Below are positions 1 through 10,753 of a stretch of DNA of 10,753 nt, piece by piece (positions within the stretch are counted from its first letter, which is position 1; the number at the start of each line of letters is the position of its first letter). The stretch is from Desulfobacterales bacterium (lineage in GTDB: Bacteria; Desulfobacterota; Desulfobacteria; Desulfobacterales; C00003106): contig JAUWMN010000026.1 in the NCBI GenBank assembly GCA_030613165.1, positions 1 through 10,753 on the forward strand, written 5' to 3'. The notes below the pieces were generated by a model that did no database searches, was not told the origin of the DNA, and saw only the letters and a list, made by a program, of their open reading frames with translations. Both the position numbers and the translations under genes were made by a program.

Positions 1-1249
1 CCCGGCGGGCCAGCCCACCAAGCTGATTCTGCTCCCACAATTCTACCTCATGTCCTCGCTGACTCGCCATTATTGCCGCCTGAATTCCGCTGGGCCCGCC
101 ACCGATCACCAGCACCCTCTTTTTCTCCGAAGCAGGTGAAACCTTCCAGGAATATTCACGACCTGCAAAGGGATTCACCGCGCAGCATCTTCCCACTCCC
201 ACGACACCTTTTTCCGCGCAATCTTGCAGACAGTATATGCACCCTCTGATGTCATCTACCATACCGGATACGGCTTTTTGCGGGAGATCAGGGTCAGCAA
301 TCAGGGCTCTGGCCATGGCAACAAAATCGGCTTTCCCGTGGCCAATGATCTCATTAGCCATATCAGGACTCTTTATCTTGCCTATGGCAACAACAGGTAT
401 GCTGACCGAGGCCTTTATCTGGGCAGCCAAACCGATCAGTGGCCTGGGAGGACTATAGTGGGAAGGGATGGTGATGAATTTTGTGGACTTGTTGCCCGCG
501 TTGGCCACGATAGCATCAGCTCCCGCGTGTTCCACGAGCCCGGCGATCTTCTTCCCGTCATCCACATCCAATCCACCCGGAACAAACTCATCACAGACCA
601 GTTTTACCATTACCGGAAAATCATGGCCCGCCGACTCCTTTACCTTTCGAATCAATTGAGTGAGGAAACGTGCCCGATTCTCTGTAGACCCTCCCATCTT
701 ATCGTTACGTTTGTTAAGAAGGGGGGAAAGGAGTTGGGCAATGAGATCGCCATAGCTTGCCTGGATTTCCACTCCATCATAACCAATCTCCCGTGCCCTT
801 TTGGCGCCGTTGGCCATGATTGCCAGTATTTCATCTGCCTCATCAAGAGACATTGCATTCGCTAGGGAGACTATCCACACATCTCCTTTTTTCTTGGCGC
901 CAACAATCTCTTTCTTAAAAGTCCTTTCTTTGGGATAATTGAGCTGCATAAAGGCCTTAGAGCCTTCAGCATGAATGACGCCTATGAGTTCTGTTACGCC
1001 CCTGGCATAGTCTTCCCGATCAAAACGAAGCTCATGGGGGCCTTTATATGCCCTGGGGTAATCCAGACAGGGGCAGTCAAGGACAATCAATGCGACACCT
1101 CCTCTTGCCCTTGCCCTATAAAACTCGATTATCTTCGGATTAACCCTGCTCTCTGTAGCGTATTTTGTGGGAAAAAGGGGCATGATGATTCTGTTCTTGA
1201 GAGAGCATTCGCCAATTTTGCCCGATGAAAAAAGATGAGGAAAGTTCAT
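1..1249 (-). CDS. NADH:flavin oxidoreductase / 2,4-dienoyl-CoA reductase-like Fe-S flavoenzyme, C-terminus cut by window edge
   Basis: Cytoplasmic flavoenzyme of the Old Yellow Enzyme/FadH family, which reduces activated C=C bonds using FMN, a [4Fe-4S] cluster and FAD. 416 codons are visible and the gene continues past base 1. The N-terminal TIM barrel (about residues 1-335) has the family start (LFSSGKIGECSLKNRIIMP), MQL near 100, and SPLLNKRNDKMGGSTENRARF near 174-194. Cluster ligands fit the family spacing C-x2-C-x3-C-x11-C: C337, C340, C344, C356, followed by VNP. An FAD Rossmann fold begins at 379 (VLVIGGGPSG) with E406 ending beta-2. The start ATG is at 1249, with GGAGG 6 nt upstream on the minus strand (1256-1260). 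Oddity: the usual HxxHGY (OYE) or SEGY (E. coli FadH) active-site segment reads QASYGD at 163-168, so the substrate is probably not that of FadH. The family is certain; the substrate is unknown. Confidence 0.93.
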   Translation of the reverse strand, partial: MNFPHLFSSGKIGECSLKNRIIMPLFPTKYATESRVNPKIIEFYRARARGGVALIVLDCPCLDYPRAYKGPHELRFDREDYARGVTELIGVIHAEGSKAFMQLNYPKERTFKKEIVGAKKKGDVWIVSLANAMSLDEADEILAIMANGAKRAREIGYDGVEIQASYGDLIAQLLSPLLNKRNDKMGGSTENRARFLTQLIRKVKESAGHDFPVMVKLVCDEFVPGGLDVDDGKKIAGLVEHAGADAIVANAGNKSTKFITIPSHYSPPRPLIGLAAQIKASVSIPVVAIGKIKSPDMANEIIGHGKADFVAMARALIADPDLPQKAVSGMVDDIRGCIYCLQDCAEKGVVGVGRCCAVNPFAGREYSWKVSPASEKKRVLVIGGGPSGIQAAIMASQRGHEVELWEQNQLGGLARR

Positions 1250-1263
1250 TTTTTTCCTCCATA

Positions 1264-1425
1264 TTTGATGATTTCGTAAAAAGTCTTCAGACACCCTATG
1301 TCGTCATTCCCGCGAAGCTTGTCCTCGGCCTGATTGGGGAGCGGGAATCCAGTAATATCAGCTTGTTCTGGACTCCCGCCTACGCGGGAGTGACGGAAAG
1401 CCGGACTTTTTACGAAATCATCAAA
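1264..1425. repeat. MITE-like palindromic element A (22-bp perfect terminal inverted repeats)
   Basis: The left end 1264-1285 is the exact reverse complement of 1404-1425 (22/22; core TGATGATTTCGTAAAAAGTC). Two further inverted repeats are nested inside: 1302-1314 with 1383-1395 (12/13; CGTCATTCCCGCG) and 1341-1352 with 1368-1379 (11/12; GCGGGAATCCAG). There is no ORF with transposase features and no obvious target-site duplication. The structure fits a non-autonomous mobile element or dispersed intergenic repeat; its RNA could fold strongly and act as a terminator between the two minus-strand genes. The left boundary is 14 bp upstream of the oxidoreductase start codon, and the right TIR supplies the stop codon of the next gene. 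From memory, CGTCATTCCCGCG-type repeats are frequent between genes in Desulfobacterota; this was not searched. Confidence 0.85.
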
Positions 1426-1912
1426 CCTGAAAGAGTGTTGTTTGGTCTTCTATGATTTTCTTGTTAATCATTGAAGTGTTTATGTCTAATGCGGGATACG
1501 TGCCGCAGACTTCAATGGTTTGACACATTTGAGACCCCTTGACGCGAAGTCCAAAATCCTTGAGTCTCGAAAAAAAATTTTTGTTGGTGGCAGGACGTGT
1601 TTCAAGACAAAGCCGATATTCATGAGGTAAGTGGTATATATGAGCGAAATGATGTGCAAGAATATAAAAACAAGCGGCGGAAAGGTACTTGGATTCGGTC
1701 TGTTTATAGAGATCCGGCCAAAACTTACCCACATGAATTCGTTTTGAATAGTTGTCTAAAGAGAAAACAACGGCGTACGAGATTTCTTCTCCCGTGTCTT
1801 TGTCAGTGATGAAATATTCAACACAATTGTCCTCCCTGTAGTACGAAAGCGCATACCTATTCAAAAGAAGCAGTATCTTCTCTTTCGCGAAATTTGATTC
1901 GGGAGAAGTCAT
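1421..1912 (-). CDS. hypothetical protein, 163 aa, stop codon within element A
   Basis: I do not recognise this protein. The start ATG at 1912 has a strong Shine-Dalgarno AAGGAGG (1920-1926, minus strand) 7 nt upstream, which argues that it is a real gene. There is no signal peptide or membrane helix, so it is probably cytoplasmic. Visible features are a KxxLxLLNRYALSYYR helix at the start, a beta-rich stretch (VEYFITDKDTGEEISYAVVF, 31-50), a His/Tyr-rich segment AHHFAHIYHLPHEYR (86-100), and SRLKDFGLRVKG (115-126), loosely like the end of a GNAT fold but without a clear acetyl-CoA signature. The TGA stop at 1421-1423 lies in the terminal repeat of element A, so the original C-terminus may have been replaced or shortened when the element arrived. 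It is flanked by elements A and B. Confidence 0.7.
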   Translation of the reverse strand: MTSPESNFAKEKILLLLNRYALSYYREDNCVEYFITDKDTGEEISYAVVFSLDNYSKRIHVGKFWPDLYKQTESKYLSAACFYILAHHFAHIYHLPHEYRLCLETRPATNKNFFSRLKDFGLRVKGSQMCQTIEVCGTYPALDINTSMINKKIIEDQTTLFQV

Positions 1913-1998
1913 GTTGGGACCTCCTTATGCAAGGTTCGTGATGAGTCTGGCGTGAAGATCGGGTAAGGGAGATGTATTGGAAAATCTTGTCATATATT

Positions 1999-2004
1999 AT
2001 TATA
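1999..2004 (-). promoter_or_regulatory. candidate -10 box for the 163-aa minus-strand gene
   Basis: On the minus strand 1999-2004 reads TATAAT, a perfect sigma-70 -10 box, inside a strongly AT-rich stretch (about 1985-2020). It lies about 87 bp upstream of the start at 1912. No good -35 box is seen at 16-18 bp (the sequence there reads like AAATAC), and any AT-rich tract gives such matches by chance, so this is a weak call. Confidence 0.3.
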
Positions 2005-2043
2005 TATTACATTATTAATCTGTATTTTGGAAGGTTTTTATAA

Positions 2044-2156
2044 TTTGATAGTTTCGCAAAAAGTCCAAAACACCCCGTCCCTCTCCCTTGATCGTCGACC
2101 CACCTGTCGAGAGGCTCTATAGGGGTGGAGAGGGACGGCTTTTTGCAAAACATCAA
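2044..2156. repeat. MITE-like palindromic element B, diverged relative of element A
   Basis: The left end 2044-2065 matches the left end of element A at 19 of 22 positions (shared TTTGAT..TTTCG.AAAAAGTC). The right end (CTTTTTGCAAAACATCAA, to 2156) is its imperfect inverted complement. An inner perfect 12-bp inverted repeat pairs 2075-2086 (CCGTCCCTCTCC) with 2127-2138. Like A, it has TIRs plus nested GC-rich arms, but the inner arms differ in sequence, so it is a degenerate or sister family member. It may act as a bidirectional barrier between the divergent units. Confidence 0.7.
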
Positions 2157-2348
2157 GGTTATATTTTGTTGTCATAGTAACAAGTTACAGGAGGAATCCG
2201 GCCCTTCGTAAAATTATCATTAATTTAGTTAATAAAATAGAGAAAGTGGTCGATAGGATCATAAGTTACACAGCAGCATACATAAACATAAAGAAAATCG
2301 GTCGTACTGATATTCTCTACTTAAGGGTACATTCTTTACCTAAAGCAT

Positions 2349-2356
2349 GGGAGGAG
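2349..2356 (+). promoter_or_regulatory. ribosome binding site deciding the start of the 150-aa lipoprotein
   Basis: GGGAGGAG with a 6-nt spacer to ATG 2363. It selects this ATG over an upstream in-frame start at 2246, which would put 39 polar residues before the lipoprotein signal peptide. Confidence 0.85.
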
Positions 2357-2362
2357 AACACT

Positions 2363-2815
2363 ATGAATCGCAAAACCAATCTCTTATTCTTACTTGTCAT
2401 TACATTAGTCCTTGTGGTTGTGGGTTGTTCACCAAAGATATACGGCACGCTCCAGCTCATGGACCCTCATATGAAGCCAGTTGTCGGGGAGAGCCCCCAA
2501 GGTACCGTGGTGAATATGATCAACACCACTGCCACCTTGGAAGATGCCTCTTATTCGGTGAGTGTTGATGAAGAAGGAAAATTTGAGTCCGAAGAAGATG
2601 CACTAACACCAGGGACGTACAAGGTGGAGGCGAATAAAATCGGTTATGTGACGGAAACACAAACTGTGGAATTAGGGAGTTGCACAAGCACGGAATTGGA
2701 GTTCAAGCTCAAGAAGATTCATGAAGGGAAACGCAGGTCCATTGAAGGGTCCAAGACCGACGCCGATAAGATAGTAAATCCTGGAGAAGTGAATATTCGG
2801 CCTCCCATGATGTAG
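2363..2815 (+). CDS. small lipoprotein with carboxypeptidase-regulatory-like domain
   Basis: A 150-aa exported lipoprotein. A type II signal peptide (NRK basic end, hydrophobic 7-20) ends in lipobox VVVGC with the lipidated Cys22. Position +2 is Ser, not Asp, so outer-membrane sorting would be predicted under the E. coli Lol rule. Residues about 26-117 form one beta-sandwich of the carboxypeptidase-regulatory/CRD type: EEGKFESEED, then TPGTYKVEANKIGYVTE and a final VELGSCTSTELEFKLK strand. The C-terminal 30 residues are basic and probably disordered (HEGKRRSIEGSKTDAD). It contains no catalytic motif; such domains are usually structural or binding modules. It is the first gene of the plus-strand group and shares its domain type with the next gene, 145 nt downstream, which suggests the two lipoproteins work in one complex. 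A specific function is not recognisable. Confidence 0.88.
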   Translation: MNRKTNLLFLLVITLVLVVVGCSPKIYGTLQLMDPHMKPVVGESPQGTVVNMINTTATLEDASYSVSVDEEGKFESEEDALTPGTYKVEANKIGYVTETQTVELGSCTSTELEFKLKKIHEGKRRSIEGSKTDADKIVNPGEVNIRPPMM

Positions 2816-2884
2816 CGGTCGACCCACATACAACTACTATCATTATATTTAAGAGACGTTCGGGTGAAATAGAAAGTCAGGGTT

Positions 2885-2926
2885 GGGCATGAAGCCGTGC
2901 CCCGTGTGGGCACTAAAGCTCCCCAC
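2885..2926 (+). promoter_or_regulatory. leader with mutually exclusive hairpins before the 860-aa lipoprotein gene
   Basis: TGCCC (2898-2902) can pair upstream with GGGCA (2885-2889) or downstream with GGGCA (2908-2912; the full downstream stem is GTGCCC/GGGCAC with a 5-nt loop). GTGGG (2906-2910) can instead pair with CCCAC (2922-2926). At most some of these stems can form together. The segment lies 35-76 nt before the ATG at 2961. I do not recognise a known riboswitch class; there is no U-tract, so it could be a stability or translation-control element, or chance. Confidence 0.35.
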
Positions 2927-2960
2927 TTGTTACGTACGTTATTTTTAGGAGGCATATACC

Positions 2961-5543
2961 ATGGCCAAACAAACGGTAAAAGTCTTTTTTGTTCTGTTTT
3001 TGTCGATTATGCTTTTTGCCTGTTCGGGCGGAAAGGACCTCGAGCTTGAGGTAAAAGTCCGCATGGATGGAAATCCGGTGGCCAAGGCCAAAATCCTTGT
3101 TGACGGAGTTGAAGAAGGGACTACGGATGACGATGGCCACTTTTCAAAGGTAATTAAGAGAAAACCTGGGACAGAAGTCGCCCTGTCGGTAGCCAAAAAA
3201 TCTGAAGGATACCGAATCGAGCCCCATGAGGAATCCTTTATTGTGAAGGTGCCCGAAAAGGGAGCGGTGGATCGGTATTCGTTCGAGGTCGATCTCAAAG
3301 CCACAAAGTATTGTACCTTTGTTGTCACAGAAAAGGGAAAACCGGTTGAAGGCGCCGCCATCAAAGTAAAAGGTAAGAATATCGGTAAAACCGATGAAAA
3401 GGGCGAATTCGTATATAATTATAAGGCCCTGCCCAAGAAGGGCGTACGCGTTATCGTCACCAAAAAAGGGTATGCGAGGTGGGACAAGACCCGCAAGATA
3501 GCACCCGGGCAAAGCTTGGAGGTGGCTCTTTCCCGGAAAGCGGTCATCTCTGTTGCCATACTCACTGATGAATATGGTCGAACAAGGGGGCTTCAGGGTG
3601 CAGTAGTACGTATCAATAACAAAAAGGTCGGAAAGACGAACGCCAAAGGAATGTATACATATGTCTATAAGGGCAAACCCGGAAAGAAGGTTCGACTTAC
3701 CGTATCTGTTCCGGGGTATATTCCGTCAGAATGGGAAAAAACGATCGTCTTGAAAGGTCGGCGCACTGTTAAAAAGTTTTTTTATCCGACCAAGCCAAAG
3801 CCGATCAGAGTAGGAATATATGATTACGTGAACAACACTCCTGATGAAGACGTCACAAAAGCCCTGAGCCGGATCAAAGAAGCAGTAAACAATAATCTTT
3901 TCAGCTACTTGATCTTCAGAGAAGTGCAAAGCGACACGCTTCACGAGAAAATGAAGGAAACAAAGCTCACCTTAGAGACCATTACGACAAAGGGCTGGCA
4001 GGGAACAGGACTCATTAGAACAGTTGATATGATCATCCTTGGGAGTGTGGCAAAGGATGAGGATGGCCTAACAATTGAGACAAAGGTCTATGCATCCGGC
4101 GGCAAGTTAATCTTCAGTCAAATAAATACCGCAAAACGCGAAAAAGATATCAAGAAGACCGCCAAGGCCATAGTGCGCAATATCATAGATCGATTCCCTT
4201 TTGAAGGTACGGTGGTTTTGGTTGAAGATCAGCTCCACTACCGTATTAATCTGGGAAAATATGACTACAAGATACGGAAGGGTATGCAGTTTGCGCTTAT
4301 GGCCCCCACAACGGACAAGACGGGGAGAATACAAGGCTACCGAGACATAGGCATACTCAAGGTAAGAAAGGCGAAAAAAACAGAATCAGCCTTGGAGATT
4401 CTCAATATAAAAGAGGGGGAGAATATTGCTATAGGCGATAAGGTAGTCCGACTAATATACCGCCAGGAGGAAATGAAGGCTGCCAAGAAGTCCTTTGTCC
4501 TGTTGGCTAAGGGAGGATTACCGCCCGATGTATCGCCGTTAAGCGGCGTGAATGTTTATCTCGATAACATGTGGGTCGGGACGACCGGGTCGAACGGCGC
4601 CTGCGCAATACCGGTACGCCTGAGAAAAAGTTATGATATCGTACTCTATCGGCACAACTATCAGCGGGTAAGCGAGGAGATACGAATAGAAGAGGACAAG
4701 GAGGTCAAGGAATTTGCTCTTACAGTCAACAACTCCCTGTTCAAGGTGGAATCACAACCATCAGGATCTGACGTATTCATTGACGGCGAAAATATTGGAG
4801 AAACTCCTCTTCTGGAAGGTAAGTTGGTAAACTTTGGATTCCACACACTCAAGCTATCGGCAAGCGGTGACTACCGTGACTGGGAAGAGGTGGTCGAGTT
4901 CAACAACAAAATAGAAGACCGTACGGGAAACAATAAAATAGTCTTTTACAAGGACTACCTAAGAATCGGAAAACGAGCTGAAGTGAACGGGGACGTTGAC
5001 GCTGCTATGGAGGCATACCGGAGTGCGGAACGGGGACATCCTGATTATTCAAATGCACGCCGCAAGCTGGCACGACTCTATATGGATGAGAAGAACGACT
5101 ATGACGCCGCTATCCGTGAGTTCGAGAATGTACTGTCGCTACCCGAAAACCGGCAACTTATCTATAAGCAGTTTGCCGTGACCTATACCAATTTAGGACA
5201 TGCCTATTATGAGAACGGAGACCATCTGATACAAAAAGATAGGGAAGCCGCTGCTCAACACTTTGCAAAGGCAATACAAAACCTCCAGAGAGCAAAGCAA
5301 AACACGCGATTCTTCCCGAACCTCCACTACGACGAGGCAGTGCATGACACTTACTACTACCTGGCTTTGTCGTATCACAAGCTCTATCTGGTTACGAGAC
5401 AAAGCACTATCCTTGATAGCGCTGATCTGGCGTGGAGAGAGTACTTTGACTTTTTCCCCAACGGGCTCAAAGGTAACAGTGCCTTTGTACAGATCAGTGA
5501 ATCGGCGGAACAGTACTGGACTCAGATTAAGGACCTGATGTAG
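2961..5543 (+). CDS. large modular lipoprotein: CRD repeats, CsgG/FlgT-like region, PEGA domain, TPRs
   Basis: An 860-aa envelope lipoprotein. The start ATG has AGGAGG 8 nt upstream (2947-2952). Type II signal peptide with lipobox LFAC, lipidated Cys21, Ser at +2 (outer-membrane type). In order: three CRD-like beta-sandwiches (about 27-113, 116-192, 193-276), the second and third near-duplicates with an 82-residue period (GKTDEKG at 142, GKTNAKG at 224); a CsgG/TolB-N-like alpha/beta region from RVGIYDYVNNTP (283) to about 413; a FlgT-C-like beta region (415-498, FEGTVVLVEDQLHYRINLGK to IGDKVV); a fourth CRD-like repeat (528-588); a PEGA domain (593-650, SQPSGSDVFIDGENIGETPL); and about four TPRs (666-835). 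It contains no enzyme motif. The likely role is an outer-membrane-anchored periplasmic scaffold. The next gene starts 22 nt downstream, implying co-expression. The domain calls are by eye; the CsgG/FlgT assignment is the least certain. Confidence 0.9.
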   Translation: MAKQTVKVFFVLFLSIMLFACSGGKDLELEVKVRMDGNPVAKAKILVDGVEEGTTDDDGHFSKVIKRKPGTEVALSVAKKSEGYRIEPHEESFIVKVPEKGAVDRYSFEVDLKATKYCTFVVTEKGKPVEGAAIKVKGKNIGKTDEKGEFVYNYKALPKKGVRVIVTKKGYARWDKTRKIAPGQSLEVALSRKAVISVAILTDEYGRTRGLQGAVVRINNKKVGKTNAKGMYTYVYKGKPGKKVRLTVSVPGYIPSEWEKTIVLKGRRTVKKFFYPTKPKPIRVGIYDYVNNTPDEDVTKALSRIKEAVNNNLFSYLIFREVQSDTLHEKMKETKLTLETITTKGWQGTGLIRTVDMIILGSVAKDEDGLTIETKVYASGGKLIFSQINTAKREKDIKKTAKAIVRNIIDRFPFEGTVVLVEDQLHYRINLGKYDYKIRKGMQFALMAPTTDKTGRIQGYRDIGILKVRKAKKTESALEILNIKEGENIAIGDKVVRLIYRQEEMKAAKKSFVLLAKGGLPPDVSPLSGVNVYLDNMWVGTTGSNGACAIPVRLRKSYDIVLYRHNYQRVSEEIRIEEDKEVKEFALTVNNSLFKVESQPSGSDVFIDGENIGETPLLEGKLVNFGFHTLKLSASGDYRDWEEVVEFNNKIEDRTGNNKIVFYKDYLRIGKRAEVNGDVDAAMEAYRSAERGHPDYSNARRKLARLYMDEKNDYDAAIREFENVLSLPENRQLIYKQFAVTYTNLGHAYYENGDHLIQKDREAAAQHFAKAIQNLQRAKQNTRFFPNLHYDEAVHDTYYYLALSYHKLYLVTRQSTILDSADLAWREYFDFFPNGLKGNSAFVQISESAEQYWTQIKDLM

Positions 5544-5550
5544 CGATTTC

Positions 5551-5557
5551 AAGGAGG
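5551..5557 (+). promoter_or_regulatory. ribosome binding site supporting a TTG start
   Basis: AAGGAGG, 8 nt before TTG 5566. There is no ATG/GTG in frame nearby that would keep the signal peptide, so the rare TTG start is chosen. Confidence 0.8.
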
Positions 5558-5565
5558 TTGGTGGT

Positions 5566-7326
5566 TTGAAGCTCAGGTGGAGGTGGCGGGGCGTAGGGCG
5601 TGCCCTTCTTGCAGCGTTATTGATTAATAGCATAGGTATTGCTTCTGATGGCCCCCTGTCGCATGATATCGCACATACGACAGACCACGAGATTGCGGAT
5701 ACACAAACGCATGAGGGAGATAACATAAATGAAACAGGAACGGATAGGGAACGCGAAGAATATGAATCGCATGGACTTGCGGAAGGAATAGGGCCTGAAA
5801 ATAATAATCTTACCGCAATTGACGAAGAGATACAACCTGCGGCGGTCGCGGATGAATCGATTGAGGAAGAAAGCCCGTCCACGGAAGACAGACCTCATGA
5901 AGTTGTGGTGGGACAGGATGTTAAGGTAGAGGAGCCGATCGGCGCTATAGAAGGCTCATCACCTCCGGAAGATACGCCACATGAGGGAGAAGAAAAACGA
6001 GAGGCCATGAAAACCGAATTCATTGAAATAACAGTAGGCAGTGAAATCGACGATGACGCATTGAATGCAATCATGGACGACATAATTTCTGGGGGCAACG
6101 AGCTGTTTGAAGCCGTAACAGAGGAAGAACGCAAACGAGGCGCCTCTGACACAGGAGCAGAAGAAGTTCAGGAGAGCGAGCTGGTTGAGGTTGTGGTGAA
6201 AGAAGGAACTCAAGAAGGTAGCGTAGATACTGTGGACTATGCAGTAAAACCAGAAGAAAAAAAGCCGGATGCGATAGCGCCCCTATATGTTCGTGAGCTT
6301 ATCGGTATCGAGGCCGGCCGCAATGATTCTAATCCTGCGTGGTCTCCCACCGGACAGATGATCGCCTTTGAACGGAGTAAGGGTGACAAGAAGGAGATTC
6401 TGATCGCACGGCTCGATGGCACGATTGTAGAGAAAGTGTACTTTCGGTTGCCTGAAGAAGATAATGAGATGAATTTTTTCTTCCCCGGCATATGTGAGGA
6501 TGTGAGTTATAATGCCGGGGTAAGCTGGTCGCCGGTTGGAGACCGGTTTGTATTTATGAGCAATGGTGGAAGCGGCAACTATGATCTCTACCTCCGCGAA
6601 CTGGGGAACAACACAACAACAAGACTTACGGAACATGGGGAGAAAGACGGTCAAGCACGGTGGTCGCCGGTAGCTGATCAGCTCCTTTTTGTGTCAGGTC
6701 GTAGGGGGAAAGCGGACATTTATCTCATGAACCTCGCAGACAATGCAACCACACTCATGACGAACGGGAACAAATCATATTTGTACCCTCAGTGGTCTCC
6801 CGATGGCGCGAAGGTTGTGATGATCTATGGAAGCAACGAAAATCACGATATCTATCTTATTGATGATGTGCGAAGACCCACGGAGACATGTGAGGCGCTT
6901 ACCACGTGGACCTATGACGATTTGAGACCGGTATGGTCTCCCGACGGCAAGAAGATCGCTTTTTACTCCAACTATAATTCGGAAAATGATCCGAAGGTAT
7001 GGTGTATTATGGTGATTGCCGCAGATGGTTCAAGCCCCACGGAAGGCGATGGACTTGTTGCGAACGTTGTGGCAACAGATGTTATTCCCAACATTGAGCG
7101 TGGACCTGCGTGGATGCCGGACAGCTCCAGAATCGTGTACGTAAAAAACGACCGGCAGGCATATAATCCAATCTACCTTGTTGACATCGACGAACGCATC
7201 GATCTCCCTCTCAGGACGGAGACAAAGATGAACTACGACGTGGTCTGCTCAGCCGACGGCACCATTGCATTTCGTTCCCAGGTTGAACAGTGGGATCATA
7301 TTTATATTGCGAAGTTGAGGCAATAA
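5566..7326 (+). CDS. exported TolB-like PD40 beta-propeller protein with long acidic linker
   Basis: 586 aa from a TTG start. An N-terminal basic and hydrophobic segment (RWRWRGVGRALLAALLINSIGIAS, 4-27) looks like a Sec signal peptide with cleavage near residue 27; there is no lipobox. Residues 28-240 are a very acidic, low-complexity linker with repeated PHE/THE motifs (SPSTEDRPHE at 103, SSPPEDTPHE at 131) and no recognisable fold. From 252 to the end come seven PD40/WD40-like blade motifs, with the WSPxG core at W259, W321, W366, W410, W457, W516 (MPDS) and 561 (CSADG), the propeller type of TolB. It differs from true TolB: that N-terminal domain is missing, the length is well over TolB's (about 430), and no Pal or TolA gene is nearby. 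The likely role is a periplasmic binding or scaffold propeller partnering the lipoprotein encoded 22 nt upstream. Confidence 0.9.
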   Translation: MKLRWRWRGVGRALLAALLINSIGIASDGPLSHDIAHTTDHEIADTQTHEGDNINETGTDREREEYESHGLAEGIGPENNNLTAIDEEIQPAAVADESIEEESPSTEDRPHEVVVGQDVKVEEPIGAIEGSSPPEDTPHEGEEKREAMKTEFIEITVGSEIDDDALNAIMDDIISGGNELFEAVTEEERKRGASDTGAEEVQESELVEVVVKEGTQEGSVDTVDYAVKPEEKKPDAIAPLYVRELIGIEAGRNDSNPAWSPTGQMIAFERSKGDKKEILIARLDGTIVEKVYFRLPEEDNEMNFFFPGICEDVSYNAGVSWSPVGDRFVFMSNGGSGNYDLYLRELGNNTTTRLTEHGEKDGQARWSPVADQLLFVSGRRGKADIYLMNLADNATTLMTNGNKSYLYPQWSPDGAKVVMIYGSNENHDIYLIDDVRRPTETCEALTTWTYDDLRPVWSPDGKKIAFYSNYNSENDPKVWCIMVIAADGSSPTEGDGLVANVVATDVIPNIERGPAWMPDSSRIVYVKNDRQAYNPIYLVDIDERIDLPLRTETKMNYDVVCSADGTIAFRSQVEQWDHIYIAKLRQ

Positions 7327-7377
7327 CGAGTTTGACTTCGCACAACGTTTTCGAGAAATGGAACGATTATATTTGAC

Positions 7378-7382
7378 AGGAG
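7378..7382 (+). promoter_or_regulatory. ribosome binding site deciding the start of the 493-aa TPR protein
   Basis: AGGAG with a 5-nt spacer to ATG 7388. An earlier in-frame ATG at 7358 lacks a comparable site and would add ten residues before a textbook signal peptide. Confidence 0.75.
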
Positions 7383-7387
7383 TGGAT

Positions 7388-8869
7388 ATGAAACGAGTTG
7401 CGTTGTTTTGTGTCATGATTTTCTTTCTGACGTCGCCGTCGTATTCTGCAGATGACCCTATGCAACGTGGCATGGAGCTTTACAAGAAACACCACTACGA
7501 AGAGGCAGCTCGAATGCTCCACTCATATCTCTCTTCTGTCCAACCCGGCAAGAAGAGTGCCATGTGCTTAAGTCTGGGTATGATCTGTTTCAAAAACGCT
7601 GAATTATACCGCCAATTGTACCAGGCATCATTATCGGTCAATCTAGACTATCTTAAAAGGCTTTCCGCCGTTAAGGGAAAGGCGCGAAGCCGTTTTGTAA
7701 AACTCTATATGGGTGAGGCATTCTTAGAAGCGGGGAATCCTCGGAAGGCGGCATCCTGTTTCAGGGAATTTATTGCTGATAAACAGATAAGCACAAAGCA
7801 CAAAGCCATTGCACGGGTGGGCCTGGGGCTCGCTCATTATAGGGAGGGGAAAAAGCAACAGGCACTTGATCTTTGGTCCGGCATTAAGATGAGCGCCCCG
7901 GAGGTATTATCCGAGCTTGCCGCAGCATACAGCACGGCGGGGCTCACGAACAGGAACCCATCAGTGATGTGTGAAAAGGCCCTTGCATCGGTGAAAAAGG
8001 CTGGGCAAGAGCCGTCGATAAGAATACTGAAAAATGTTATCGGGGTCTATGCCCGAACAGGGCTCATCAAAAAGGGACTCGATCTGGTCAGGCACGCGGA
8101 TATGAAAGGGTTTTCATATGAAGAGGTGCTTGTTAAAAACAAGACAATCCGCTTCTACGATTTCGCACTCCTCAACAACTTGTCAATGTTTTACGGAAAG
8201 GCGAGTCTGGGTTATCTGAAAGAGGCGGCAGCGGACCCCAAGGTCAAAGATGCGGCGCATTATTACTTGGGTGAAGCGCATGCCCTGTTCGGCAACATTG
8301 ACCAGTCAATCAAGGTGACCGATTCGTTTCTGTCATCTTCACGGATGCCGCGGCAGTATAAGGATAAAGCAACGGTGCGGCAGGCCGCCAACCGTTATCA
8401 AAAAGGGCATAAGACAGAAGCAATAAACTTTTTGAACAACCTCTCACGGCAAAAGGCTGCACCCGATCTCCTCGCGGAGGTCCTCTTTACGTGCAGCAGG
8501 CTTCATTGTGAATGCCCGGAAACAGTTGCAAAGGCAATGGCTTTGGCTGAGTCAGGAGAAGGGAAAAACCTGTCCAGCGTCAATTGTGCGCTCGGCACCT
8601 ACTATCTGTGGCAGAAGGACTACGGGAAGGCGGTCTTCTACATGGAAGCAGGGAGAGACAAGAGCAATAAAAACAGGATTGAGCAGAACGACCCTTTGAC
8701 GCTTACCAACCTGGCTGAAGCTTATTACCGCACCAAGAAATTTTCTGAGGCCCTGGAGATATATTTTGAAATGAGCAAGCATTTTCCGGCGTTACGACAG
8801 ATTCAGGTTGCAATGCAGGGCGTCTATTCAATGGAACAGAAAAGTGCGGGAGACGTTAAGGTCTTTTAG
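7388..8869 (+). CDS. periplasmic TPR-repeat protein
   Basis: 493 aa. The signal peptide MKRVALFCVMIFFLTSPSYSA has likely cleavage near residue 20-21; there is no lipobox, so it is predicted to be soluble in the periplasm. The rest is almost wholly helical TPR-type repeats: about 23-54, 101-135, 139-166, 173-188, 289-321, 331-355, 397-424 and 437-467, the last two being the most canonical (ALGTYYLWQKDYGKAVFYME; NLAEAYYRTKKFSEALEIYF). The middle (190-285) is degenerate helical repeat. No catalytic residues are apparent; TPR solenoids typically bind peptides or partner proteins. It sits 61 nt after the propeller gene and shares TPRs with the 860-aa lipoprotein, which supports a joint complex. 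The precise family is not recognised. Confidence 0.88.
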   Translation: MKRVALFCVMIFFLTSPSYSADDPMQRGMELYKKHHYEEAARMLHSYLSSVQPGKKSAMCLSLGMICFKNAELYRQLYQASLSVNLDYLKRLSAVKGKARSRFVKLYMGEAFLEAGNPRKAASCFREFIADKQISTKHKAIARVGLGLAHYREGKKQQALDLWSGIKMSAPEVLSELAAAYSTAGLTNRNPSVMCEKALASVKKAGQEPSIRILKNVIGVYARTGLIKKGLDLVRHADMKGFSYEEVLVKNKTIRFYDFALLNNLSMFYGKASLGYLKEAAADPKVKDAAHYYLGEAHALFGNIDQSIKVTDSFLSSSRMPRQYKDKATVRQAANRYQKGHKTEAINFLNNLSRQKAAPDLLAEVLFTCSRLHCECPETVAKAMALAESGEGKNLSSVNCALGTYYLWQKDYGKAVFYMEAGRDKSNKNRIEQNDPLTLTNLAEAYYRTKKFSEALEIYFEMSKHFPALRQIQVAMQGVYSMEQKSAGDVKVF

Positions 8870-8895
8870 ATATGAGATTAATACTATCATACCAG

Positions 8896-8922
8896 AAAGG
8901 ACGTATGATTAAGAGTGTTTGA
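8896..8922 (+). other. possible mini-ORF (MIKSV) in the leader of the solute-binding protein gene
   Basis: A GAAAGGA ribosome-like site (8896-8902) precedes ATG 8905 by 2 nt, and the frame closes at TGA 8920-8922 after five codons. It lies 32 nt before the SBP start. The spacing is shorter than ideal. It could couple translation or be chance. A 10-nt imperfect direct repeat (CGTATGATTA at 8902, CGTACGATTA at 8929) overlaps it. Confidence 0.2.
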
Positions 8923-8943
8923 ATAAATCGTACGATTACCTGG

Positions 8944-8949
8944 AGGAGG
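8944..8949 (+). promoter_or_regulatory. ribosome binding site deciding the SBP start
   Basis: AGGAGG inside a GGAGGAGGAG run, 5 nt before ATG 8955. It favours this ATG over an in-frame TTG at 8919, which has no comparable site and would place twelve polar residues ahead of the signal peptide. Confidence 0.85.
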
Positions 8950-8954
8950 AGCTT

Positions 8955-10574
8955 ATGAAAAGGTTAGCGGGTGTTCTGTTTCTTATTGTCTTAATTACGT
9001 TGGTCGTTATAGTGCCCCCGTCAGAGGCGGCACCGAAGAATAACGGGAAGTCGGATGGAGGGACGCTGAATTACGGTGAGTACGGCAGGCCGGCCACGCT
9101 GGATCCCATTACCAGCAATGACATGATCTCCCTACGTATTACCGAACTTATCTTTAACGGTCTTGTAGGGATCAATGAGCGGCAGGAGATCGTGCCTGAG
9201 CTGGCGGAACGGTGGGAGATATCCAATGACGGCCGTACGTATACCTTTTACCTGAGGAGTGATGTGACATGGCATCCCAGGGAAGACGAAGAACTTCGGC
9301 CGTTTACCGCGGATGATGTTGTGTTCACATACAACATTATGACGCATCCTAAAACCATCACCTCTCTTAAGGTCAGGTATGAGTTTATAGGGGGCGTCAC
9401 GAAACTTGATGACTACACAGTGGAGTGTAAACTCAAAAGGCCGGTTCTTAACGCACTCGCCAAGTTCAGCTTCAAGATTATACCACAACATGGACCGAGC
9501 ACGCCCGAGTACCTTACAAGGGAAGACCCCTTTGTACACAAACCGATCGGGACAGGGCCCTACATGCTGAAGAACCTCACTGCCGACCGTGAGGTTGTAC
9601 TCGTCGCAAACGAAAACTATTTTAACGGCCGTCCTCACGTAGACAAGTTTGTTGCCAAACCTTTTGCGGACCAGAATATTATGACGCAAGCGCTCATGTT
9701 TAATGCTATTGACATGGTTGTGTTGGTAAACCCCAGAAATATACCCGAGCTCCAGGGTGACAAGCGCTTTGTTCTGCAGCCGTACAACGCCTTGTCATAT
9801 TCATTTTTTGGCTACAACATGCGAAATCCGTTGCTTGCCGACAAGCGCGTGCGCAAGGCGATAGGCTATGCAGTGAATCGTCAGGAAATGCTCGATGCGT
9901 TCTTTAATGCTCAGGGGACGATAATCTCCGGCCCTTTCGCTCCCGGGAGTTGGGCGTATAATCTGGATGTGCGGCCGTTGCCGTATGACCCTCAAAAGGC
10001 ACGCGATCTCTTGCAAGAGGCGGGTTTTGTTCAGGGAACCGACGGTATCATGGAGCAGAACGGCGAAAAACTCTCCCTGACCCTTAAGGTGCCCATAGAA
10101 AAGGAGAACGAGGCTGTCAAGCGCGTAGTGCTTGCCTTTAAAAGCTATCTTAAGAAAATAGGTGTGGATATCAAGGTGGAATTTAAGGAATGGTTGTCCT
10201 GGAAAGAAAGCGTTTTTCTGAAGCACGACTATGACATTATATTCGCCTCATGGGTCTTTGACGATTCCGCCGATATATCGTCACTTTTCCATTCAGCAGA
10301 AATCGGCCCATGGAAGAATAACTTTGGCGCTTACTCCAATCCCGAGGTGGACAGTCTTATTGTGGAAAGCAAACTCACGCTCGACCACGAAAAACGGAGA
10401 ACCATAAATCGAAAACTTCACGCTCTTATCGCAGAGGAGAGTCCTTATACCTTTCTCTGGACCCTCACGAACTATGCAGCTTACAATAAGAAATTGAGAC
10501 ACGTTGCGATTCACCCGTACAAGTTCTTTTCGTTCGCTGACCATTGGTTCATTCCCGAGGAAGAACAGAAATAA
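8955..10574 (+). CDS. ABC transporter substrate-binding protein, family 5 (peptide/nickel, Dpp/Opp type)
   Basis: A 539-aa periplasmic binding protein that captures a solute, typically oligopeptides, and in some family members nickel chelates or sugars, and delivers it to an ABC permease. The signal peptide MKRLAGVLFLIVLITLVVIVPPSEAA has cleavage near 25-26 and no lipobox, so it is soluble. SBP_bac_5 landmarks, in order: LNYGEYGRPATLDP (38-51), LVGINERQEIVPELAERW (70-87), FTADDVVFTYN (117-127), the signature PIGTGPYMLK (197-206), RVRKAIGYAVNRQEML (298-313), YDPQKARDLLQEAGF (344-358), and YSNPEVDSLI near 460. The length is typical for the family. The substrate cannot be read from sequence. A hairpin and the start of a probable permease gene follow, as in Dpp-type operons. 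Confidence 0.95.
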   Translation: MKRLAGVLFLIVLITLVVIVPPSEAAPKNNGKSDGGTLNYGEYGRPATLDPITSNDMISLRITELIFNGLVGINERQEIVPELAERWEISNDGRTYTFYLRSDVTWHPREDEELRPFTADDVVFTYNIMTHPKTITSLKVRYEFIGGVTKLDDYTVECKLKRPVLNALAKFSFKIIPQHGPSTPEYLTREDPFVHKPIGTGPYMLKNLTADREVVLVANENYFNGRPHVDKFVAKPFADQNIMTQALMFNAIDMVVLVNPRNIPELQGDKRFVLQPYNALSYSFFGYNMRNPLLADKRVRKAIGYAVNRQEMLDAFFNAQGTIISGPFAPGSWAYNLDVRPLPYDPQKARDLLQEAGFVQGTDGIMEQNGEKLSLTLKVPIEKENEAVKRVVLAFKSYLKKIGVDIKVEFKEWLSWKESVFLKHDYDIIFASWVFDDSADISSLFHSAEIGPWKNNFGAYSNPEVDSLIVESKLTLDHEKRRTINRKLHALIAEESPYTFLWTLTNYAAYNKKLRHVAIHPYKFFSFADHWFIPEEEQK

Positions 10575-10600
10575 GGAATCATTGCGACGCTATCTTCTTA

Positions 10601-10642
10601 AAAGGAATGCCGCGTATCTTCAAAAGAACCCGGCATTCCTTT
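10601..10642 (+). terminator. strong hairpin between the SBP and permease genes (attenuator or mRNA-protecting stem)
   Basis: A perfect 12-bp stem AAAGGAATGCCG (10601-10612) / CGGCATTCCTTT (10631-10642) with an 18-nt loop, 27 nt after the SBP stop. There is no U-tract after the stem, so full Rho-independent termination is doubtful. In many SBP-permease operons such stems lower downstream expression or protect the upstream mRNA 3' end, giving excess binding protein. Confidence 0.6.
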
Positions 10643-10659
10643 AAGAGTCATTCTGAATC

Positions 10660-10753
10660 ATGAAACTTTCTGCCATTAGACCTATAACACTCCTGTTAGC
10701 CAAGGAACTGGTTATCACCGCATTTTTGCTCCTGGGAGTGAGCTTTGTGGTAT
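10660..10753 (+). CDS. start of a membrane protein, probably DppB-like ABC permease (3' truncated)
   Basis: 31 codons are visible from ATG 10660. The protein begins with a short polar N-terminus (MKLSAIRPITLLLAKEL) and enters a hydrophobic segment VITAFLLLGVSFVV ending at the window edge. The LLGVSxxVF-like first helix and the position just after a family-5 SBP suggest the DppB/OppB-type inner-membrane permease. No good Shine-Dalgarno precedes this ATG (only AAGAG about 11 nt away), so the true start may differ. Too little is present to exclude another membrane protein. Confidence 0.5.
   Translation, partial: MKLSAIRPITLLLAKELVITAFLLLGVSFVV

Follow-up and report, generated by a model that had tools for sequence, protein, structure and literature searches.

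An operon of envelope proteins with PorE-like parts and a predicted peptide importer in Desulfobacterales and other bacteria

What do four consecutive genes for envelope proteins do in a bacterium of the order Desulfobacterales, when their parts recall a scaffold of the type IX secretion system? The genes, here called A to D, lie at positions 2363 to 8869 of a 10,753-nucleotide stretch (the window; assembly GCA_030613165.1, contig JAUWMN010000026.1, positions 1 to 10,753). A sequence-only reading had taken them for a four-gene module with the parts of PorE spread over separate proteins and had assigned the products a PorE-like scaffold role in an outer-membrane-anchored complex. Here, we report that A to D are a genuine unit but form the first part of a larger operon of nine genes (A to I), which continues into a predicted peptide importer and very probably acts as one functional unit.

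Gene order and conservation

The gene order on the plus strand of the window is A, B, C, D, E, and the start of F. Gene A (2363..2815) encodes a CRD-like lipoprotein of 150 amino acids (aa) with a conserved C-terminal tail (DxDKIxNPGEVNIxPPxM), and gene B (2961..5543) encodes a multi-domain lipoprotein of 860 aa. The product of gene C (5566..7326) is exported and has a long N-terminal stretch of variable length, followed by a C-terminal TolB-like PD40 beta-propeller; gene D (7388..8869) encodes an exported TPR superhelix. Coordinates, gaps (145, 22, and 61 nucleotides), and modules of these four genes were re-checked in the sequence and agreed with the earlier description. Gene E (8952..10574) encodes a family-5 (Opp/Dpp) solute-binding protein, and gene F (from 10660 to the window end at 10753) encodes an ATP-binding cassette (ABC) permease, recognized by a 50-bit tblastn match to the F family.

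Among 7,996 candidates scored, 392 relatives of B were found (E ≤ 1e-3); the 120 listed share 53 to 70% identity with B (B itself excepted), nearly all over at least 95% of the length. Conservation of the operon was assessed in 57 loci from a genome collection, with taxonomic labels taken from the submitters' own record titles (Desulfobacterales/Deltaproteobacteria, Nitrospirae, Rokubacteria, Beta- and Gammaproteobacteria, Gallionella, Gemmatimonadetes, and others). Fifty-four were titled metagenome-assembled genomes (MAGs) and the other three bins; no cultured strain was evident among them. Mapping of the nine families with tblastn recovered A to I in full, on one strand and in one order, in 30 loci (29 by each family's best hit, plus L037, with its I gene at 20605-21606). 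Another 24 held a contiguous gene run whose open end lay no more than about 1 kb from where the contig stops, and none of the 57 was out of order. The gene-neighborhood check proposed with the sequence-only reading thus found A to D kept together in several phyla. One MAG (JABXJZ) supplied two loci (L051 and L054, on contigs 118 and 110), each with A, B, and C, and some genomes may carry two operon copies. C seemed to be missing from L056, D from L034, and I from L037, but all three genes were present on re-mapping; these absences were artifacts of open reading frame (ORF) picking, and so were the long ORFs read antisense in GC-rich loci (clusters c9, c15, c22, c24, and others). Besides these antisense artifacts and A to I, no ORF cluster occurred in more than 10 of 59 sequences (the 57 loci, the window, and L002).

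Co-occurrence was examined in 193 genomes of the window's order (80% completeness requested; the window genome, at 67%, included), with the first candidates of each genome scored against cut-offs of our choosing (B, E ≤ 1e-20; C, E ≤ 1e-25; E, E ≤ 1e-90). Strong matches to B (10 genomes), C (10), and E (9) fell in the same genomes; the one with B and C but without E was G140, where the operon is fragmented. The G permease was found in nine of the 10 B-positive genomes (the query's own at 100% identity, seven at 74 to 87%, and a partial match in G140), and the other permeases listed in these genomes reached at most 41% identity to it. Several of these genomes recur among the 57 loci (e.g., G024 is L027 and G140 is L077), so that the two lines of evidence overlap. 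Tree distances of B, C, D, and E were correlated (r, 0.84 to 0.93; 0 of 500 permutations as high) in 28 loci (27 of the 57 and the window) with all four genes within set length limits. On the basis of retained order, co-occurrence, and this correlation, we reject the idea that the ABC genes are chance neighbors of A to D. The nine-gene composition is strongly supported; physical coupling and the ligand, discussed below, are what we infer from it.

The predicted importer

Genes E to I are predicted to encode a peptide importer of the Opp/Dpp class. E matched SBP_bac_5 (2.3e-86), and its nearest PDB entries were AppA (the best), 8efz, and DppA. The window holds only the start of F, and relatives supply the rest: L027 encodes two BPD_transp_1 permeases (F and G) and two ABC_tran proteins with oligo_HPY (H and I). 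Asp437 of E aligns with Asp408 of DppA, which we take to be the residue that binds the amino end of the peptide, and is Asp in all 37 aligned E proteins. This alignment suggests, without proving, that the ligand has a free alpha-amino group, i.e., that it is a peptide.

Family-5 binding protein, two permeases, and two ATPases are as in known Opp/Dpp/App importers, and the equivalent of DppA Asp408 is kept. In contrast to these importers, the conserved operon also encodes a pair of lipoproteins, a TolB-like propeller, and a TPR protein, and E is more conserved than any of the other eight proteins. Its mean pairwise identity was 0.74 (minimum, 0.65; n = 37), compared with 0.55 for A, 0.48 for B, 0.52 for C, 0.40 for D, 0.64 for F, 0.70 for G, 0.64 for H, and 0.67 for I (n from 19 for H to 52 for C, with ORFs outside set lengths left out). 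Such conservation across phyla suggests either a constant ligand or that E is fixed in a complex.

The envelope proteins and their proposed role

The N-terminal part of B consists of CRD/Ig-like domains. In the structural model, residues about 280 to 434 form a TolB-N/FlgT-like domain; the beta domains beyond it include PEGA (595-649), and TPRs lie at the C terminus (about 660-860). The B model matched FlgT (3w1e; Foldseek E, 1.8e-10), and the B profile gave TPR matches only against PDB sequences. The fold is related to that which bears pore hairpins in CsgG; in the monomer model, the strands of residues 280 to 412 are at most 10 residues long. Fold searches with D returned nothing beyond generic TPR matches. 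Its last residues, SAGDVKVF, are well conserved yet were modeled with a predicted local distance difference test (pLDDT) score under 50. Two lipoproteins with a propeller protein and a TPR protein make an outer-membrane-anchored periplasmic complex, as first proposed, a fair reading of the predicted products.

Resemblance to PorE holds at the level of parts. PorE (PG1058) of type IX secretion is a single lipoprotein with TPR, propeller, CRD, and OmpA-like domains (PMC5053529); the TPR, PD40 propeller, and CRD modules and the lipid anchor recur in A to D. Here, however, the parts are split over several proteins, TolB-N/FlgT-like and PEGA domains are added, and the whole is linked to an importer; an OmpA/Pal part, invisible to the sequence-only reading as well, is not among the domains listed for A to D. 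None of the 57 loci was titled Bacteroidota. Because the operon runs from A to D into E to I, the PorE-like parts are, on present evidence, tied to a peptide importer rather than to type IX secretion.

Tol-Pal shares with A to I the TolB-N fold (in B), the TolB-like propeller (in C), and TPR proteins. TolB, however, has its N-domain and propeller in one chain, here divided between B and C, and none of TolQ, TolR, TolA, and Pal is among the nine genes (A to E in the window; F to I in L027), the flanks being mostly unscanned. We reject a replacement of Tol-Pal, since separate TolB_N proteins of TolB-like length (frames of 441 to 489 aa) occur elsewhere in 10 of 10 genomes (the control matched in 3 of 14). 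FlgT is a flagellar H ring protein of Vibrio. The likeness to it is the predicted fold in the B model; unlike in the flagellar setting, the domain would sit inside a long multi-domain lipoprotein, and no flagellar proteins are among the nine genes.

The best reading, to which we give a probability of roughly 0.45, is that A to D link the outer membrane physically to the import of peptides. A and B would be lipid-anchored in the inner leaflet of the outer membrane, with B reaching into the periplasm as a multi-domain arm (CRD/Ig-like, TolB-N/FlgT-like, PEGA, and C-terminal TPR). The propeller of C and the TPR superhelix of D would complete the scaffold, the conserved tails of A and D being likely docking motifs. 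So assembled, the scaffold would place E to capture peptides that cross, or are set free at, the outer membrane and the wall, and E would hand them to the inner-membrane importer F to I for ATP-driven uptake.

Several points weigh against this coupling. No outer-membrane pore or receptor was recognized in the operon (no search was aimed at receptors), and the route of peptides over the outer membrane is for that reason unexplained. At the position of DppA Asp408, AppA (the best PDB match of E) has Ser, so Asp437 is suggestive at most. Genes that simply move as a block would likewise give similar tree distances. The genome that contains the window is incomplete (67%), the window itself breaks off in F, and a search of this genome for the G permease (E ≤ 1e-40) gave no match. 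The system is accessory, being absent from most genomes of the order and present in about 5%; in a smaller sample of 58 relatives, seven had a strong B match, and two of three congeners of the window had none. Three of the 57 loci depart from the nine-gene pattern. L075, from a Gammaproteobacterium MAG, has a B-like protein alone (28% identity; 1522-4197), the rest of the operon not being there; L077 has only A and B with a portion of C; and L079 begins in the last part of B, continues with C and D, and breaks off early in E. By its coordinates, L077 is the B place of G140, further C and G pieces lie far off in that genome, and breakage or misassembly of its operon is likely. Both L077 and L079 are broken operon copies in single-contig MAGs.

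In Gram-negative bacteria, ABC importers are usually regarded as ending at the periplasmic binding protein. If the coupling is true, some of them would be envelope-spanning complexes with a dedicated outer-membrane lipoprotein scaffold. A bolder and rather improbable version is a new class of two-membrane import in diderm bacteria, in which an inner-membrane ABC importer of peptides is mechanically coupled to the outer membrane through a split TolB-like and CRD scaffold; such a machine would be a counterpart of the TonB and Tol systems driven by an ABC importer. A 2025 paper treats PorE as a fusion of CpoB, TolB, CRD, and Pal parts and questions its direct role in secretion (PMC12204202). PorE-, TolB-, and CpoB-like parts may serve uptake in A to I, which bears on PorE's own role. 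No description of the A-to-I operon was found in the open-access library searched, for the terms used, and the combination of scaffold and peptide importer appears undescribed.

Alternative explanations

Of the alternatives, the one that survives best, though unlikely, is a role in cell-wall turnover, in which E to I would import murein peptides freed by peptidoglycan remodeling and A to D would be a Tol-Pal- or CpoB-like scaffold coupling import to the upkeep of the wall and the outer membrane. The parts of A to D do resemble TolB and periplasmic TPR proteins, and a peptide-type ABC importer, YejBEF-YepA, is reported to recycle murein fragments in Agrobacterium (PMC9790009). Two murein-peptide-binding proteins (4toz and 3o9p) are among the PDB relatives of E, but both are outscored by AppA and DppA. 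Among the domains listed for A to D, none is of a peptidoglycan-binding or wall-cleaving type, a separate TolB_N protein is kept in all 10 genomes, and a patchy distribution (10 of 193 genomes) would be odd for a housekeeping function.

Peptide sensing, in which A to I would detect an extracellular or periplasmic peptide and take it up for signaling rather than nutrition, is quite unlikely. It would fit the greater conservation of E than of the other eight proteins and some genes upstream of A: two ORF clusters in some Nitrospirota and Betaproteobacteria loci resemble response regulators with diguanylate-cyclase motifs (by visual inspection of one member per cluster, not by profile), and the one scanned member of a third cluster, present in six loci, has a PilZ domain. 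These upstream genes, however, vary by lineage and are missing from most loci, and no sensor domain is listed for A to D.

The original proposal, that A to D are a PorE analogue scaffolding a secretion machine with the ABC genes as mere neighbors, is highly improbable, for in spite of the module types in common (TPR, propeller, CRD, and lipoprotein; PMC5053529), the five ABC genes are kept directly downstream in several phyla, the operon continuing into the Opp/Dpp-type importer up to each contig's end (the three exceptions apart), all nine genomes with E also have B, no OmpA part is listed for A to D, and no secretion component was recognized among the nine genes. Given this operon context, we reject a type IX scaffold as the function of A to D. 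A search for the type IX marker SprA matched in 0 of 10 genomes, and its controls likewise in 0 of 14.

Non-coding and flanking features

The gap between E and F (10575..10659, plus strand) contains a stem-loop (-25.5 kcal/mol; z, -3.9 against mononucleotide shuffles). In relatives, 13 of 28 E-F gaps fold at z below -2.5 (mononucleotide shuffles), a larger share than for the A-B, B-C, C-D, D-E, and H-I gaps but not than for F-G (4 of 8). The stem-loop may determine how much binding protein is made relative to permease. No Rfam match at the gathering score and no tRNA were found in the window, where promoter- and terminator-like sites were no more frequent than in shuffled sequence.

Upstream of gene A, a strong hairpin lies at 2050-2155 (folding energy, -47.8 kcal/mol over 2040-2165; z, -5.2 with dinucleotide shuffles as the reference). 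Stretches of up to about 42 nucleotides match it in part elsewhere in two genomes of the genus, and it is perhaps a terminator or a repeat element. In 10 loci, a lipoprotein-like ORF precedes A (e.g., L070:8801-9343 and L037:8642-9313) and appears by eye to be a coiled coil; the one member scanned had no Pfam match. The upstream ORF found in six loci belongs to the cluster whose single scanned member has the PilZ domain. On the minus strand of the window are a 163-aa ORF without assignment (1421-1912) and an Oxidored_FMN gene of the old-yellow-enzyme type (2-1294), which extends past the window edge.
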